DNA from: Dysgonamonadaceae bacterium
GTDB lineage: Bacteria > Bacteroidota > Bacteroidia > Bacteroidales > Dysgonomonadaceae
DNA: 37,154 nucleotides
Direction of reading: 5' to 3'
Assembly: GCA_031272205.1 (NCBI GenBank)
Contig: JAISUH010000033.1
Location: forward strand, 1 to 37,154
Shown here: one piece after another, positions 10,402 through 23,574 of the stretch
How positions within the stretch are numbered: position 1 is the stretch's first letter
How the letters are laid out: the number at the start of each line of letters is the position of its first letter
Made by a program: the position numbers and the translations under genes
Notes under the pieces: generated by a model
The model's input: only the letters and a program-made list of their open reading frames with translations
Databases searched by the model: none
What the model was told of the DNA's origin: nothing

Positions 10402-11723
10402 CGCCTTTACAACTCATCATAGAGCGCGAATACCTTGCGCGTGTGAAAAAGAAATCCTTCATTCTGCTCACCATCCTCATGCCTTTCCTGTTTGTGGGCA
10501 TTGCGTTGGTACCGGCTTTCTTGTCGATGGTGAAAGATTCCGGCGAGAAGACCATTGCCGTAATCGACAAAACGGGTTTATATACGACGGAATTGCAATC
10601 GTCGCAAAACTACCGTTTTATCTCTGTAGATCCCGATTCGCCGCTTGTATCGTATATGATGAAGCTCGATACCGATTATTTCGGTATCCTTGATATCAGC
10701 GGCGATTTGAGCCAAGAACCCAAAGCCGTTTCCTTCCTTTCGGAGAAACAGCCGCCTTTGGACTTGCTGTCGATGATTGAGAACCGGCTTTCGGAGAAAG
10801 TAAAAAACCAAAAATTGGAAGGGCTTGCCCATTCGGGAAGCGCCGACAGCGCCGCTATTGCGCAGGTATTGGCGGTAATCGACAGCAAAAGCAACAACAT
10901 CTCGGTTTCTACGCTCCGCAAGGATAAGGAGGGCGAAATGAAAGAATCGTCCACCATTGTGGCGTCGATTGTGGGCGGTGTGTTCACCTTCCTGATTTAC
11001 ATGTTCATCATGGCGTATGGCGCTATGGTGATGCAGGCGGTGGTGGAGGAAAAGAAAAATCGCATTGTGGAAGTGATGGTTTCCACGGTGCGCCCCGTTA
11101 ATTTGCTTGTCGGCAAGATTATCGGGGTGGGCTTGGTCGGTATGACTCAATTGATTATCTGGGGCATTCTGATCGGCGGCCTGATGAGCGTGGCGACTGT
11201 TTTCACGGCCGCGCCGGTATTGCCGGCAAGCGGAGCCGAAGCGATGATAGGCGGAGCCGATTCTTTCGACCCCGCACAGACAATCGCCATTTTGTCGGGC
11301 ATCAACTGGTTAGAAATCATCCTGTTGTTTTTTGTCTATTTTATCGGCGGATATATGATGTATGCTTCGCTGTTTGCCGCGATTGGCGCGGCCGTGGATA
11401 ACGATCAGGATACGCAGCAGTTTATGATGCCGATAACCTTCATCATTCTTTTCGCTTTTTATGCCGGACTTTACAGCATACAAAACCCCGACGGGCCTTT
11501 GGCTTTCTGGTGCTCGCTCTTTCCGCTCTCATCACCCATTGTGATGATGGTGCGGCTTCCGTTTGGCGTGCCGTTGTGGGAAAAATTGCTGTCCCTTGCC
11601 CTGCTTTTCGCTGCGTTTTTGCTGATGGCATGGTTGGCCGCCAAGATCTACCGTGTGGGAATCCTCATGTACGGCAAGAAACCTACTCTGAAAGAAATGA
11701 TACGATGGATAAAATACAAATAA
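10398..11723 (+). CDS. ABC transporter permease (NatB/ABC-2 type)
   Basis: In-frame start MTPLQLIIEREYLARVKKKSF inside the 10074..11723 ORF; ATGA overlap with the upstream ATPase stop; several TM segments. Confidence 0.9.
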   Translation: MTPLQLIIEREYLARVKKKSFILLTILMPFLFVGIALVPAFLSMVKDSGEKTIAVIDKTGLYTTELQSSQNYRFISVDPDSPLVSYMMKLDTDYFGILDISGDLSQEPKAVSFLSEKQPPLDLLSMIENRLSEKVKNQKLEGLAHSGSADSAAIAQVLAVIDSKSNNISVSTLRKDKEGEMKESSTIVASIVGGVFTFLIYMFIMAYGAMVMQAVVEEKKNRIVEVMVSTVRPVNLLVGKIIGVGLVGMTQLIIWGILIGGLMSVATVFTAAPVLPASGAEAMIGGADSFDPAQTIAILSGINWLEIILLFFVYFIGGYMMYASLFAAIGAAVDNDQDTQQFMMPITFIILFAFYAGLYSIQNPDGPLAFWCSLFPLSSPIVMMVRLPFGVPLWEKLLSLALLFAAFLLMAWLAAKIYRVGILMYGKKPTLKEMIRWIKYK

Positions 11724-11737
11724 CCCATTTAAATAAT

Positions 11738-12970
11738 ATGAAATACAAACTATTGGCTTTAGACTTGGATGGTACTTTATTGCGAAGCAATAATACCATT
11801 TCGCCTGCAACCTTGAATGCGTTGATTAAAATTCAACACGCAGGGGTTAAGATTGCGATTGTGTCCGGACGTCCTACTTTCGGGTTGAAATATGCGGAGG
11901 ATAAATTGGAAATCGCCAATTACGGCGGTTATTCCATTTCCTATAACGGCAGCCGGATAAAAGATTTGAAGGAAGACGAGCTGATTTTCGACAAAAGGAT
12001 AGATCCGGGTTTGTTCCCCCTGTTGCAAAAGGAAGCCGATAAGCGGGGGCTGACGCTGTTTACTTACGACAGAAACAACATTTACACCAATCATCCCGAT
12101 AACCGGCACGTGCTGAAAGAGGCTGAGATCTGCAATATGGAAGTGGTGAAAATCCGTGATTTTGCCGACGAAATCACTTTTTCGCCTTGCAAATGTATTA
12201 TCGTGAGCGACGATGCCGACGTGATCACCGAAATGGAACGGAAATGGAAAAAACGCTTGGACGGCGTGAGCAACGTGTTCAGTTCCGAACCCTTCTTCCT
12301 CGAATTTGTGCCTCAGCACGTGGACAAAGCCAATACCCTCTCCTTTTTATTGGACCGACTGTCGATAACCCGCGAAGAAGTGGTGGCCATCGGCGACGGG
12401 AACCTCGATTTCAGTATGATTCAATTGGCCGGTTTCGGTATCGCAATGGGCAACGCGAAAGATTCCATCAAATCCTGCGCCGATTGGGTTACCGATACCA
12501 ACGACAACGACGGCGTGGCCAAGGCGATCGCCAAATTGGCGGAGGCCGAGGCGCAACCCTCCCAAATCCCCTTGGAAGTGATGAACGCACAAGCTCAAAA
12601 CACCTTGATGGGCAATCTGGGCATTCGCTACACGTATATCTCCGACAAACAAATTGTGGCGACCATGCCGGTGGACAAACGCACGCGCCAACCCTTCGGG
12701 ATTCTTCACGGAGGCGCTTCGCTCGCGCTGGCCGAAACTATCGCAGGACTGGGGTCGATGGTGCTTTGCGAACCGGGCGATCACGTAGTGGGAATGCAGG
12801 TGAGCGGCAACCACATCTCGTCGGCGCACGAAGGCGATACGGTGCGCGGCGTGGGAACCTTGGTGCATAAAGGACGCTCATCGCACGTCTGGAACGTGGA
12901 TATCTTCACCTCGACCGACAAATTGATTTCTTCAGTCAGGGTTACAAACGGGGTGATAAAAAAGGGATAA
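11738..12970 (+). CDS. HAD-family (Cof-type) phosphatase fused to hotdog-fold PaaI-like thioesterase (menaquinone-pathway type)
   Basis: N-terminal MKYKLLALDLDGTLLRSN and GDGNLDFSMIQLAGFGIAMGNA; C-terminal hotdog domain GILHGGASLALAETIAG; start reassigned from 11510. Confidence 0.9.
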   Translation: MKYKLLALDLDGTLLRSNNTISPATLNALIKIQHAGVKIAIVSGRPTFGLKYAEDKLEIANYGGYSISYNGSRIKDLKEDELIFDKRIDPGLFPLLQKEADKRGLTLFTYDRNNIYTNHPDNRHVLKEAEICNMEVVKIRDFADEITFSPCKCIIVSDDADVITEMERKWKKRLDGVSNVFSSEPFFLEFVPQHVDKANTLSFLLDRLSITREEVVAIGDGNLDFSMIQLAGFGIAMGNAKDSIKSCADWVTDTNDNDGVAKAIAKLAEAEAQPSQIPLEVMNAQAQNTLMGNLGIRYTYISDKQIVATMPVDKRTRQPFGILHGGASLALAETIAGLGSMVLCEPGDHVVGMQVSGNHISSAHEGDTVRGVGTLVHKGRSSHVWNVDIFTSTDKLISSVRVTNGVIKKG

Positions 12971-12990: not shown

Positions 12991-13189
12991 ATACTTGAAG
13001 ATAGAAACAATCAGGAGGAAAATAAGGCTGTTTTTCCTTCTGATTGATTTTACTCCCCCCTGCTTGGCACAGGCTCCCCCCTTGCAGCAGCGCATCGTTA
13101 TCCCTGCTAAGGGATGCATATCAACAGGAAAACCAACGCCCACCCGACACCCAACCGCGTAGCGGGTGCACATTTCTTTATCGGGTGCA

Positions 13190-13259
13190 ACCCCGAACGG
13201 GGTTGAAAGGTCGTTGTTATTCCTTGGTTTCTATTGATATGGATGGCCTGCGGCCAAAT
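13190..13259. repeat. REP-like palindromic repeat (variant: CAACCCCGAACGGGGTTG plus TTTCTATTGATATGGATGGCCTGCGGCCAA)
   Basis: Same module order as the copies near 15690-15765 and 30510-30580. Confidence 0.7.
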
Positions 13260-13277
13260 TCTTAATACCTGCATCTT

Positions 13278-13310
13278 CAACCTGTTAGGTTTTCAAAACC
13301 TAACAGGTTT
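13278..13310. repeat. 33-bp palindrome, variant 1
   Basis: CAACCTGTTAGGTTTTCAAAACCTAACAGGTTT; near-perfect inverted repeat. Confidence 0.8.
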
Positions 13311-13336
13311 GATTGGGGCGCTTACACATACATTTC

Positions 13337-13369
13337 AAACATTCCAAATTTTCGAAATTTGGAATGTTT
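13337..13369. repeat. 33-bp palindrome, variant 2, abutting AGCTGCCCCCC junction and a short AACTATA block
   Basis: AAACATTCCAAATTTTCGAAATTTGGAATGTTT; 15-bp arms. Confidence 0.8.
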
Positions 13370-13473
13370 AGCTGCCCCCCTAAGAACTATAAACTACCCA
13401 CTAAAACCCCCTCCTTCGCGCCTTCGTGGCAAAACCATCCGGTTGAGGATAGAAACAAAAATTTTAAGATGTT

Positions 13474-13512
13474 AAAAAAAAACTGTCCGGAAACGTATAG
13501 CGTCCGGACAGT
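13474..13512 (-). terminator. Intrinsic terminator of the minus-strand GH18 cluster
   Basis: Minus strand: ACTGTCCGGA...TCCGGACAGT stem followed by T9. Confidence 0.75.
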
Positions 13513-13534
13513 TATTTCAACACATATTAAAAAA

Positions 13535-13966
13535 TTAATTTCCCAATTCGGTATTGATTTTTTTCATCAGCGACTTTGTTTCGTCGCGACTGTCGCTATC
13601 AACCGACCACAGCGCCATTCCGGCGAGGTTGTTGTTCTTCACAAAGGCTGCTTTTTCCGTTATCGCGGGGAACCCGTCGTAATACAGCCCGTTGTCCGTC
13701 GCCTGAGTATTGACGTTTGGCGCATCCGGATAGGTTGAGCAGATTGTCCTGTACGGGATGTATTCGGTATATTCCCAAAGGTTGCCCCATGTATAATCGG
13801 TAACTACACTGTTCTGAGCGTTTTTTACACTGACAAATGCACTATAAACGGGACTGCCGTCTTCTGCATCGGTAACGGTGCCGCTTATCTGTATATTCTG
13901 CGCAAAAAGCGCATCGACAGCGGTAAACAGCACACAAATCAAACAAACTAATTTTTTCTTGCTCAT
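13535..13966 (-). pseudogene. Chimeric remnant: SusC-like signal peptide and CarboxypepD_reg-like N-terminus joined to a GH18 C-terminus
   Basis: N-terminus MSKKKLVCLICVLFTAVDALFAQNIQISGTVTDAEDGSPVYSAFVSVK; C-terminus GLYYDGFPAITEKAAFVKNNNLAGMALWSVDSDS resembles the end of the adjacent GH18 (LTYYDGTVTMARKATYIREHGLGGIMIWELTQDT); no catalytic motif. Confidence 0.65.
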
Positions 13967-13990
13967 ACATTGTCGGTTTATATAATTAAT

Positions 13991-15022
13991 TTATCTCCAC
14001 AGTTCGCTGTGAATCACATTCAGAAGGCTTTTCTCCTGATCGTCGGTGTCTTGGGTCAGTTCCCAAATCATGATGCCGCCCAATCCGTGTTCTCTGATGT
14101 ATGTCGCTTTTCGAGCCATTGTTACTGTTCCGTCGTAATACGTAAGCCCGACTTGGTCTTTTTTATAGGCTTCCAAATCGGACGACAGAACGATGATGTC
14201 CTTAAAAGCGATGCTTGTTGCGCCCGTGGCATCGCCTTCTTTCAGAAAGGTATATCCGTAAAACGGAACGCCGGCAACCAATTTTTCAAGAGGCAACTTC
14301 CTGTTGTTCAGCCAATGGTCGATCGCTTTTTCGAAAAACGACCATGAAGAATGAGCCCCGGTAGTATTGCCCGACCAGGGGCCTGTCTCGTCATAAATCA
14401 TGATGCTGATAAAATCGAGGTATTGGTGCATGGAGTTGGTGTAGCAGTTGTAAAAACCCCATCCCCCGTCATCGTAGCTGCCGCTTACGGCCGCCGTGAT
14501 GAGTTTATCGGCGCCCAGCGCCGTGCGCAAATCCTTGTACAATTCTTCCAATGCCGCTCGTTTGGGAATGTCTTCTGCGCCAATGCCGCCCTGGCCGCCC
14601 GTCCATTCCTCGTAGTCGAGGTCAATACCGTCCAAATCGTAGTCGCTAACGCATTTTTGAAGGTCATCCCTGAGTTTTTTCCGAAGATCCGGATCGAGCA
14701 GAGCCGTAGTAAAATACTTGGCTTCGCCTCCTCCTCCTACCGATAACAACACCTTGACCCCATGCCCGTGAGCCTGCCCGATGGTGTTGCGAAAACCATC
14801 GAGAATGCTGGCGTTTAATGTCCCCTCCTGCGTTATTGTCCCAAATGCAAGATTCAAATGGGTGATTTTATCCCATTGCGGCGTAAACCCGCTTTTCCAC
14901 GAAGGCAGATATCCTACAACAAACGCTTTTCTACCCGAAGGTTCCAAAGTTTTTAATTTTTCCGTTCCGCATGACGTTAGTAAACAAACTACACAAATTA
15001 GAAAAAAACTCTTTTTTTTCAT
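13991..15022 (-). CDS. GH18 family glycoside hydrolase lipoprotein (chitinase / endo-beta-N-acetylglucosaminidase-like)
   Basis: 343 aa; lipobox LLTSCG; catalytic DLDGIDLDYEEW (DxxDxDxE). Confidence 0.92.
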   Translation of the reverse strand: MKKKSFFLICVVCLLTSCGTEKLKTLEPSGRKAFVVGYLPSWKSGFTPQWDKITHLNLAFGTITQEGTLNASILDGFRNTIGQAHGHGVKVLLSVGGGGEAKYFTTALLDPDLRKKLRDDLQKCVSDYDLDGIDLDYEEWTGGQGGIGAEDIPKRAALEELYKDLRTALGADKLITAAVSGSYDDGGWGFYNCYTNSMHQYLDFISIMIYDETGPWSGNTTGAHSSWSFFEKAIDHWLNNRKLPLEKLVAGVPFYGYTFLKEGDATGATSIAFKDIIVLSSDLEAYKKDQVGLTYYDGTVTMARKATYIREHGLGGIMIWELTQDTDDQEKSLLNVIHSELWR

Positions 15023-15459
15023 CGCTCTAAATGCTAAAAATTTTTACAAATTTAATTACTTTTTTATATGAAATGCAACGAATGGGATATTATTTTATGA
15101 TTTATTGTTTTTTAACTATTCAAACATCTTCTTTGTGTTGTTTGCAAGCCGCCACAAGCGGCGAAGCAATCCGGCATGGAAGCACGAAAGTGCGGCTTAG
15201 TTGGTAGTTTATAGTTCTTAGTTCTTAGTTCTTAGTCTTTAGTTCTTCGGGGTGAAGCAACCCGGAAAAAAAATGAGGTTTTCCCTTTCATGCCTTTGTG
15301 GTTCATATTTCGCTTTTTGGCGCGAAGGCGCAAAGCCCCAAAGAAATCGATGGATTTAGACCCTTATCTATCAAAATCACCCTTAGTAGCCCAAGGCCAC
15401 ACACCCCCGCTCAGCTTATTTTTCTGATAAATAATGGAATAAGGGAGAAAATGGGGGGG

Positions 15460-15623
15460 AGTTGAGAATTGAGAATTAAGAATTAAGAATTAAGAATTAA
15501 GAATTAAGAATTAAGAGTTGGGAAGGTAGAAGGAGCGAAAGAGGGTGTCTTAGTGGGTAGTTTATAGTTTATAGTTCTTGGGGGCAGCTAAAACTTTCAA
15601 AGTTTTGAAAACTTGGAAAGTTT
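15460..15623 (+). repeat. Composite repeat: (GAGAATT/AAGAATT)n, spacer, GTGGGTAG(TTTATAG)n, GGGGGCAGCT, 33-bp palindrome variant 3
   Basis: Heptamers visible 15460-15520; TTTATAG block 15553-15580; palindrome AAACTTTCAAAGTTTTGAAAACTTGGAAAGTTT at 15591-15623. Confidence 0.85.
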
Positions 15624-15656
15624 TTTTAAAAAAAGTGATGCAAGTGTCGTCGATTG

Positions 15657-15682
15657 TAGAGACGCGGCATGCCACGTCTCTA
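15657..15682. repeat. 26-bp palindrome TAGAGACGCGGCATGCCACGTCTCTA
   Basis: Inverted repeat with one mismatched symmetric pair; the CGTCTCTACTGCCAATGCAACCCC right flank recurs near 30492. Confidence 0.75.
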
Positions 15683-15688
15683 CTGCCA

Positions 15689-15766
15689 ATGCAACCCCAT
15701 ACGGGGTTGAACGGCATTTATACGCTTGTTTTCTATTGATATGGATGACCTGCGGCCAAGAACCTT
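15689..15766. repeat. REP-like repeat (CAACCCCATACGGGGTTG...TTTCTATTGATATGGATGACCTGCGGCCAAG)
   Basis: Near-identical to 30510-30583; inverted related copy 22470-22570. Confidence 0.75.
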
Positions 15767-15829
15767 CCTCAAAATTCCCTTAGTAGCCCAAGGCGCCACC
15801 CACCGCCCATACCTTATTTTTATGTCATT

Positions 15830-15862
15830 AAACCTGTTAGGTTTTTTAAATCTAACAGGTTT
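15830..15862. repeat. 33-bp palindrome, variant 1b
   Basis: AAACCTGTTAGGTTTTTTAAATCTAACAGGTTT; related to 13278-13310. Confidence 0.75.
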
Positions 15863-15903
15863 AATAACAGGTTATTGACATGTTGTCTGTCCGCAGGTAA
15901 CGC

Positions 15904-22371: not shown

Positions 22372-22616
22372 CCCCCCCATTTTCTCCCTTATTCCATTAT
22401 TTATCAGAAAAATAAGCTGAGCGGGGGTGTATAGCCTTGGGCTACTAAGGGAATTTTGAGGAAGGTTCTTGGCCGCAGGCCATCCATATCCATAGAAAGC
22501 ACGGGGTTAAACACCGTTCAACCCCGTACGGGGGTGCATTGGTGGGGCGCCTTGCTTTCTATTGATATGAAAATCCCACGGATTTTATGAACTTGATTAA
22601 AAGGGATAAGCAATGA

Positions 22617-22922
22617 TCAAAATATCATTGAGTATTCAATACGGCAGCCTAAAGCATTCATAATTCGATAGAATGTTGAAATTTTAGGTTCTGTCTGACC
22701 ATGTTCCACTTTTGATATGTAAGAACGGTCAGAACCTATTCTCCTTGCTAATTCCGCTTGAGTGATTTTAGCCCTTTTTCTAGCATCTTCAATAATTTGA
22801 CCGGTATAGAACGCATAAGCCTTTTCTTCTGCATCCATCCGGCTTTCTGTTCCTTTTGCTCCGAAGCGTTCTTCAATGAGTGCACTTACATTGAAATAAT
22901 CATTATTTTCCTTTGCTATCAT
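22617..22922 (-). CDS. XRE-family HTH antitoxin (HigA-like)
   Basis: 101 aa; HTH ITQAELARRIGSDRSYISKVEHGQTEPKISTFYRIMNALG; overlaps the upstream toxin ORF by 20 bp. Confidence 0.88.
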   Translation of the reverse strand: MIAKENNDYFNVSALIEERFGAKGTESRMDAEEKAYAFYTGQIIEDARKRAKITQAELARRIGSDRSYISKVEHGQTEPKISTFYRIMNALGCRIEYSMIF

Positions 22923-23235
22923 AATATTCTTTTTTTAATTTTTTTGCTTTTTCTATTTCCGAAACGGGCGTTTTCTGTGTTTTTTTTTGAAATCCATTGA
23001 ATAGTATAACGATATATCCCTTATCAAAACAGAAAAAAATACGATATATATTACCCTCATATTCAATTCTCAATTCATATAAACCATCCTCTATTATCCG
23101 CATAAATTTTAAAGGCATTCGATCTTGTGTTTCCAATAACATAAGTATGTACAAAATTTTATTTTGTACTCCTTCATCCAAGCTGTCGAAAAACTCTTTA
23201 AAGTAATTTTTATATGAAATAATAGTCCTCTCCAT
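22903..23235 (-). CDS. RelE/HigB-type (Gp49-like) toxin
   Basis: 110 aa; GLYELRIEYEGNIYRIFFCFDKGYIVILFNGFQKKTQKTP core. Confidence 0.88.
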   Translation of the reverse strand: MERTIISYKNYFKEFFDSLDEGVQNKILYILMLLETQDRMPLKFMRIIEDGLYELRIEYEGNIYRIFFCFDKGYIVILFNGFQKKTQKTPVSEIEKAKKLKKEYYDSKGK

Positions 23236-23387
23236 CGCACAAAGATATAAAATGTTGTCAAACTATACAACAAAATGATCTGTTTTTTTAATTGTTCCTC
23301 ATTTATCCCGGTTATCCGAGTATCGTCGCCTTATTTTGACAGGGAAAAATAAGGGGAGAGGGTGGTGGCGTTTGGTTCGGGATAAGA

Positions 23388-23574
23388 GGCTGTCTCAAAA
23401 GCCCCGTCATTGCGCCCCGTGCTACGACACGGGATCTCACCCGCAATCTCATAAAATCTGTAATACTAAATAATTGTATATTAATCTTTAACAATCAGAA
23501 GGGGATTCCTGCTTTGGCTCCGCCGATTTTGCAATTCGCAGGAATGACGCGGCTTTTCTACTTTTGAGACAGCC
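23388..23574. mobile_element. MITE-like element, copy 2
   Basis: ~187 bp, near-identical to copy 1, same orientation, same TIRs. Confidence 0.75.

Follow-up and report, generated by a model that had tools for sequence, protein, structure and literature searches.

Short hairpin repeats on both sides of a Y1 HUH transposase gene, with dispersed copies elsewhere in the genome, are found in the REP/RAYT (TnpA-REP) systems, or REPtrons, of subclasses 2.2, 2.4 and 2.5 (PMC6006769; PMC2817692; PDB entry 4ER8). RAYTs of subclass 2.6, from Bacteroidetes, are accompanied by 'atypical secondary structures' (PMC6006769), and subclass 2.1, or TIRYT, is described with TIRs instead of REP-like sequences nearby and with longer proteins that carry an extra C-terminal domain (PMC6006769; PMC3733652). 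Double-foot REPs are known as well (PMC6006769), and in-frame palindromes in protein-coding genes are represented by the Rickettsia palindromic elements (cited in PMC3733652). REPINs and BIMEs consist of two hairpin units in inverted orientation that together make up a larger hairpin, which is the unit of dispersal. A family of 33 bp palindromes in a Dysgonamonadaceae genome is a little-described version of these bacterial REP repeats: very probably, its members are REP-like non-coding repeats whose cognate transposases form a clade of Bacteroidota RAYTs (TnpA-REP, Y1 HUH). The palindromes have a common geometry and covary at two levels, they lie in or beside the RAYT genes of the clade and diverge in parallel with the transposase, and the transposase has the predicted fold of a RAYT.

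As in the REPtrons of subclasses 2.2, 2.4 and 2.5, the repeats stand on both sides of the transposase gene and recur elsewhere, the repeat diverges with the transposase and the best structural match is 4ER8. Unlike those repeats, the palindromes have no GTAG or GTGG foot and are perfect 15+3+15 structures of fixed 33 bp length with nested 6-3-6 arms, and the clade transposase has F[EQ] in the position of the W[EQ] found in most REP-bearing subclasses (published table, PMC6006769). With subclass 2.6 they share the Bacteroidetes hosts, the absence of GTAG and structures found on either side of the gene and again elsewhere in the genome; in a comparison limited to published motifs, the weaker structures and the NH[LIV]H, WQ and YIH[QN]NP of subclass 2.6 (PMC6006769) are set apart from NH[FL]H, F[EQ] in place of WQ, and YIHxNPVxHG in the clade. 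The motifs of subclass 2.1 (F[Q], with phenylalanine in place of W, NH[YF]H and Y[IV]HLNP) resemble those of the clade, a likeness that holds at the level of motifs; that subclass has longer proteins and is reported without REPs, whereas the clade has cognate palindromes. Like REPINs and BIMEs the palindromes are inverted doublets, unlike them with units just 3 nt apart and 33 bp in total. The Rickettsia elements, similar in lying in frame in protein-coding genes, are longer than 33 bp, and the palindromes described here differ from them in being linked to a RAYT clade.

The window is the whole stretch of DNA that was analysed, 37 154 nucleotides of contig JAISUH010000033.1 (assembly GCA_031272205.1); palindromes and repeat modules are given without strand. 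The initial annotation placed four 33 bp palindromes at 13278, 13337, 15591 and 15830, and all are present there, which confirms the observation. Two of the four have perfect arms (at 13278 after omission of the outermost pair); the other two each carry one mismatched pair. The palindrome at 13278–13310 (AACCTGTTAGGTTTT-C-AAAACCTAACAGGTT) belongs to class A, which has at least 11 exact genomic sites; its first base, C, is unpaired and the perfect palindrome is 13279–13309. The class C palindrome at 13337–13369 (AAACATTCCAAATTT-TCG-AAATTTGGAATGTTT) is a perfect 15+3+15 structure with further copies in the source genome at C16:32863, C28:7941, C39:1453 and C98:12225. The class B palindrome at 15591–15623 (AAACTTTCAAAGTTT-TGA-AAACTTGGAAAGTTT) has an A/G mismatch at arm position 9, common to two other copies with similar flanks, and the class A palindrome at 15830–15862 (AAACCTGTTAGGTTT-TTT-AAATCTAACAGGTTT) has a G/T mismatch at arm position 12. 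Calculated as single-stranded DNA, each of the four folds into a single hairpin of −9.5 to −13.4 kcal/mol, with z scores of −3.8 to −7.3 relative to shuffled sequence.

All four are intergenic, in stretches rich in interspersed repeats. Those at 13278 and 13337 lie between a convergent HAD–thioesterase fusion gene and a short GH18-related ORF, and those at 15591 and 15830 between the GH18 gene and a GH127 gene. The fusion gene (11702–12967, + strand) encodes a HAD hydrolase joined to a 4HBT thioesterase domain and has 91% identity in a congener (G001). The short ORF (13535–13966, − strand) combines a CarboxypepD_reg-like N-terminus with a C-terminal GH18 fragment, adjoins the full GH18 gene and is possibly a remnant or chimera. 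No clean pair of filled and empty sites was found at the nucleotide level; the alignment to the congener extends no further than the end of the gene, and the congener contig ends soon afterwards.

A genome-wide pattern search, as proposed in the initial annotation, was performed in the source genome (2.33 Mb, 82.8% complete), which was examined by pattern searches and in stretches. The generic pattern AAACNTNNNANNTTTNNNAAANNTNNNANGTTT is gapless, fixes 18 bases and imposes no pairing on the free positions. It matched 29 sites, and the reversed control matched none; the family is not a product of chance. The sites fall into class A (AAACCTGTTAGGTTT), class B (AAACTTTCCAAGTTT) and class C (AAACATTCCAAATTT), with a single site (C62:9012) in which the class B triplets are exchanged. 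Palindromes are often paired about 26 bp apart, as are those at 13278 and 13337, which form part of a mosaic of interspersed repeats. The 26 bp spacer module between them (13311–13336, gattggggcgcttacacatacatttc) recurs between A/B pairs elsewhere in the genome (L002, L019, L021, L026 and L028). Many of the palindromes are close to contig ends, as expected because repeats break assemblies. Beside the palindrome slot at 15591 lies a flank module of the mosaic (15624–15655, ttttaaaaaaagtgatgcaagtgtcgtcgat). Within a common flank context, three copies have a class B palindrome in the slot beside the module 'ttttaaaaaaagtgatgcaa', each with the identical mismatch, and several more copies have class C there; beside the C40 copy of the flank module there is no 33 bp palindrome of the window family. 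On visual reading of the flanks, class B copies that share a flank had either TCA or TGA as the central triplet and class A copies either TTT or AAA, as if the triplets had been flipped in place.

The same mosaic repeat contains a second palindrome type at 15656–15683, a 28 bp GTAG...CTAC double-foot REP-like element (GTAGAGACGCGGCATGCCACGTCTCTAC) that resembles the double-foot REPs of RAYT subclass 2.4. Similar double-foot elements occur within split-profile RAYT genes of related genomes (L160, L163 and L166). In subclass 2.4 tnpA-REP genes such REPs lie in frame between the HUH and Y motifs of their own transposase (PMC6006769), a position in which the 33 bp palindromes are like them; the GTAG...CTAC ends distinguish the two types.

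Across the phylum, the generic pattern matched 49 of the 396 Bacteroidota genomes sampled, that of the window included, and the reversed control again matched none. Genomes of other families have the same geometry with other arms, such as AAACGTGTTAGGTTT (22 sites in genome G046), AAACCTATAAGGTTT and AAACTTCCGAAGTTT. Plasmid and phage collections contained no match to two further class variants, distinct from A, B and C, and searches of the open-access literature for the palindrome sequence returned nothing but unrelated work on other organisms. The compensated arm changes that had been claimed from four copies were borne out when 39 palindromes, 38 of them distinct and most of them the sole representative of their genome, were aligned. 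Pairing was present in 98.8% of the paired cells, compared with 85.6% after shuffling, and 72 cells were changed on both sides, compared with 19.1 in shuffles (a value reached in 0 of 500). Two-sided changes were found at all six variable pairs, the only six to provide covariation evidence since the pattern fixes nine of the 15.

The proposed excess of compensated over uncompensated changes is thus present between genomes but not within one. Among 14 sister copies of G046 chosen by their flanks, there were four one-sided arm changes and one two-sided change; two-sided differences prevail when families or genomes are compared, but not among sister copies. Repair that rewrites the partner of a mutated arm from the mutated arm, by template switching at the quasi-palindrome, was among the mechanisms first suggested, and would account for the mostly two-sided changes between genomes, for the occurrence of classes B and C, two compensated pairs apart, in slots with similar flanks and for a double change from C4–G30 to G4–C30 in one G046 copy beside a sister copy with the first step alone. 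The presence of one-sided and two-sided states at the same position is what stepwise compensation would give. The four-to-one ratio within G046 implies that fast repair of each copy is not the source of the matched changes, the palindromes at 15591 and 15830 retain their mismatches, the former in three copies, and repair leaves both the fixed 33 bp length and the link to RAYT genes unexplained. We therefore consider palindrome-correcting repair unlikely.

In the same 14 copies, the arms differed at 0.028 per site and the central triplet at 0.56. These values replace a first estimate, for which copies had been selected on intact arms. The near flanks differed at about 0.12 per site, an approximate comparison as it comes from 11 partly overlapping copies chosen by intact arms. 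A hypervariable central triplet between nearly constant arms was also seen at locus L073.

The second level of covariation lies within each arm. In palindromes adjacent to RAYT genes, each 15 bp arm is a 6-3-6 dyad in which positions 1–6 are complementary to positions 10–15, with a mean of 5.0 of six matches compared with 1.7 for shuffled arms (50 non-redundant loci). The inner pairs 3–13, 4–12 and 5–11 covary strongly (0 of 1000 shuffles for each; 54 distinct RAYT-adjacent arms). A two-hairpin fold had no visible support in the first alignment, in which those columns hardly vary, and is supported by the more varied RAYT-adjacent arms. Each arm is thus a potential hairpin with a 6 bp stem and a 3 nt loop, which makes the whole an inverted doublet with a 3 nt spacer; the symmetry of the doublet makes its two loop triplets complements of one another. 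Judged by its base pairing, the 33 bp element is a nested, REPIN-like doublet, with movement as a unit putative.

The link to transposases emerged in G046, in which copies of its 33 bp palindrome lie on either side of and within an ORF with a match to the REP-associated tyrosine transposase model. There a palindrome also interrupts the adjacent type I restriction gene (HsdR) in frame; the protein has an extra segment, NVLGFENLTH, that is absent from the three homologues aligned. Some of the RAYT genes in further genomes rich in palindromes have a 33 bp palindrome on both sides. As PF01797 missed these RAYTs, we used NF047646 and a profile of our own (A1), built from seven seed RAYTs that were mostly picked for having palindromes and of which a few are in the tree. 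The first RAYT loci, the best matches to NF047646, had almost no 33 bp palindromes, an indication that the link is specific to a clade. For loci added later, similarity of the protein was the sole criterion. The best 30 A1 loci in the phylum sample all have a palindrome, mostly of 33 bp, beside or inside the gene, and the 80 named A1 loci are mainly from Bacteroidota, including Chryseobacterium, Algoriphagus, Cytophaga, Gracilimonas and Reichenbachiella. The length of the palindromic span has a sharp peak at 33 bp (110 loci), and a 33 bp palindrome lies within 150 bp of the RAYT gene in 49 of 70 named loci, on both sides in 26.

In a tree of 110 RAYTs, the 33 bp palindrome label is present in 59 of 72 rows of the clade (SH-aLRT support 99) and in two of 38 others; 13 clade rows have no 33 bp palindrome nearby. 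Palindrome difference grows with RAYT difference (Mantel r = 0.22, 0 of 2000 permutations; 50 non-redundant loci). The AAAC pattern is present in 27 of 81 genomes with a strong clade member and in 22 of 315 without (p = 7e-9, uncorrected for phylogeny), a comparison in which palindromes of other classes are missed by the pattern; 22 of the 49 palindrome-positive sampled genomes lack a strong clade member. The initial annotation had suggested a check of gene proximity for hairpin-specific transposition by a Y1/RAYT enzyme. This mechanism has strong support from related genomes, where the clade genes are flanked or interrupted by palindromes of the same geometry. No clade RAYT was found in the window's own genome, 82.8% complete, and mobilisation there is therefore inferred from the relatives. 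Other Bacteroidota RAYT types (L112, L118, L119 and others) have their own, different flanking palindromes (e.g. TTGGTCACCCAAACTGGAGTTTGGGTGAC).

The clade proteins have the HUH motif, the catalytic tyrosine and the NP motif in a Y1 fold, with NH[FL]H and YxxNP conserved in 34 proteins. The NF047646 match (E = 3.6e-15) is below the cut-off of that model, and the HMM match to 4ER8 has an E value of 6.6e-7. An AlphaFold model of a clade transposase (pLDDT 93) has 4ER8, the E. coli TnpA-REP bound to a REP hairpin, as its best PDB match (E = 7.7e-9). The flanks of 36 independent sites show A+T richness only, without a GT[AG]G foot or any other conserved tetranucleotide, so that the guide sequence used by E. 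coli TnpA-REP has no visible counterpart here.

The unit is the 33 bp element, with two inverted 15 bp hairpin-forming arms (6 bp stem, 3 nt loop) and a 3 nt spacer, like a minimal REPIN. The RAYT would bind the hairpin in single-stranded DNA, nick at its foot and then move or copy the element. Drift in enzyme specificity would yield a new master palindrome, changed in both arms, that replaces the old one, which would explain the matched changes between families; individual copies would afterwards accumulate ordinary mutations, most of them one-sided. Within the window's genome, copies are dispersed in a mosaic of intergenic repeats, and their RAYT would be either lost or located in the unassembled part. 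Somewhat speculatively, the clade may move a fixed-length nested palindrome without a guide tetranucleotide by recognising two inverted mini-hairpins, the central triplet being rebuilt or flipped at each event.

The family is a short palindromic repeat with many dispersed, mostly extragenic copies: in other genomes, eight of 58 copies lie in long ORFs, compared with 63% of random positions. This avoidance of genes, together with the position of the window palindromes between or downstream of genes, would suit bidirectional intrinsic terminators or 3'-end mRNA-stability hairpins, with stems kept by selection on RNA structure. However, a terminator scan found no terminator at any of the four window sites, palindromes also lie in frame within coding genes, with seven of the eight copies inside genes in one dominant reading phase, and the common length and arm consensus, the near-identical dispersed copies and the RAYT linkage would be unexpected. 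A role of this kind is very unlikely as the origin of the family, and some copies may affect transcription. If the palindromes are REP-like repeats, some insertions in genes, that in the transposase's own gene included, would survive because a length of 33 bp keeps the reading frame. Least probable of all is that the palindromes serve a dimeric DNA-binding protein with no part in transposition, as operators or nucleoid sites. The perfect dyads, the AT-rich centre and a half-site that is itself dyadic suggest such a role, but it is at odds with copies within coding and RAYT genes, class turnover that follows RAYT divergence and the clustering of palindromes at a single transposase clade; the data do not require an ordinary dimeric repressor, and other proteins may bind.

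To the RAYT/REP field the palindromes add a distinct and easily searched repeat architecture. A large Bacteroidota clade without the W motif, similar by motif to a subclass reported without REPs, has cognate palindromes that are constant in length and covary at two levels. A system without a GTAG guide makes RAYT recognition and the spread of REPs testable, and it provides a counterpart to the palindromes in protein-coding genes known from Rickettsia, one for which a candidate enzyme is available.

Runs of the mosaic modules caaccccgtacggggttg, tgatatggatggcctgcggccaa and tagtttatagttctt occupy 13040–13500, 15140–15900, 22380–22600 and 23300–23450 of the window, with palindromes embedded, and similar modules are present in other contigs of the source genome. 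The same repeats border adjacent HTH_3 antitoxin-like and Gp49/HigB-like genes (22617–23235, − strand), a probable toxin–antitoxin pair.
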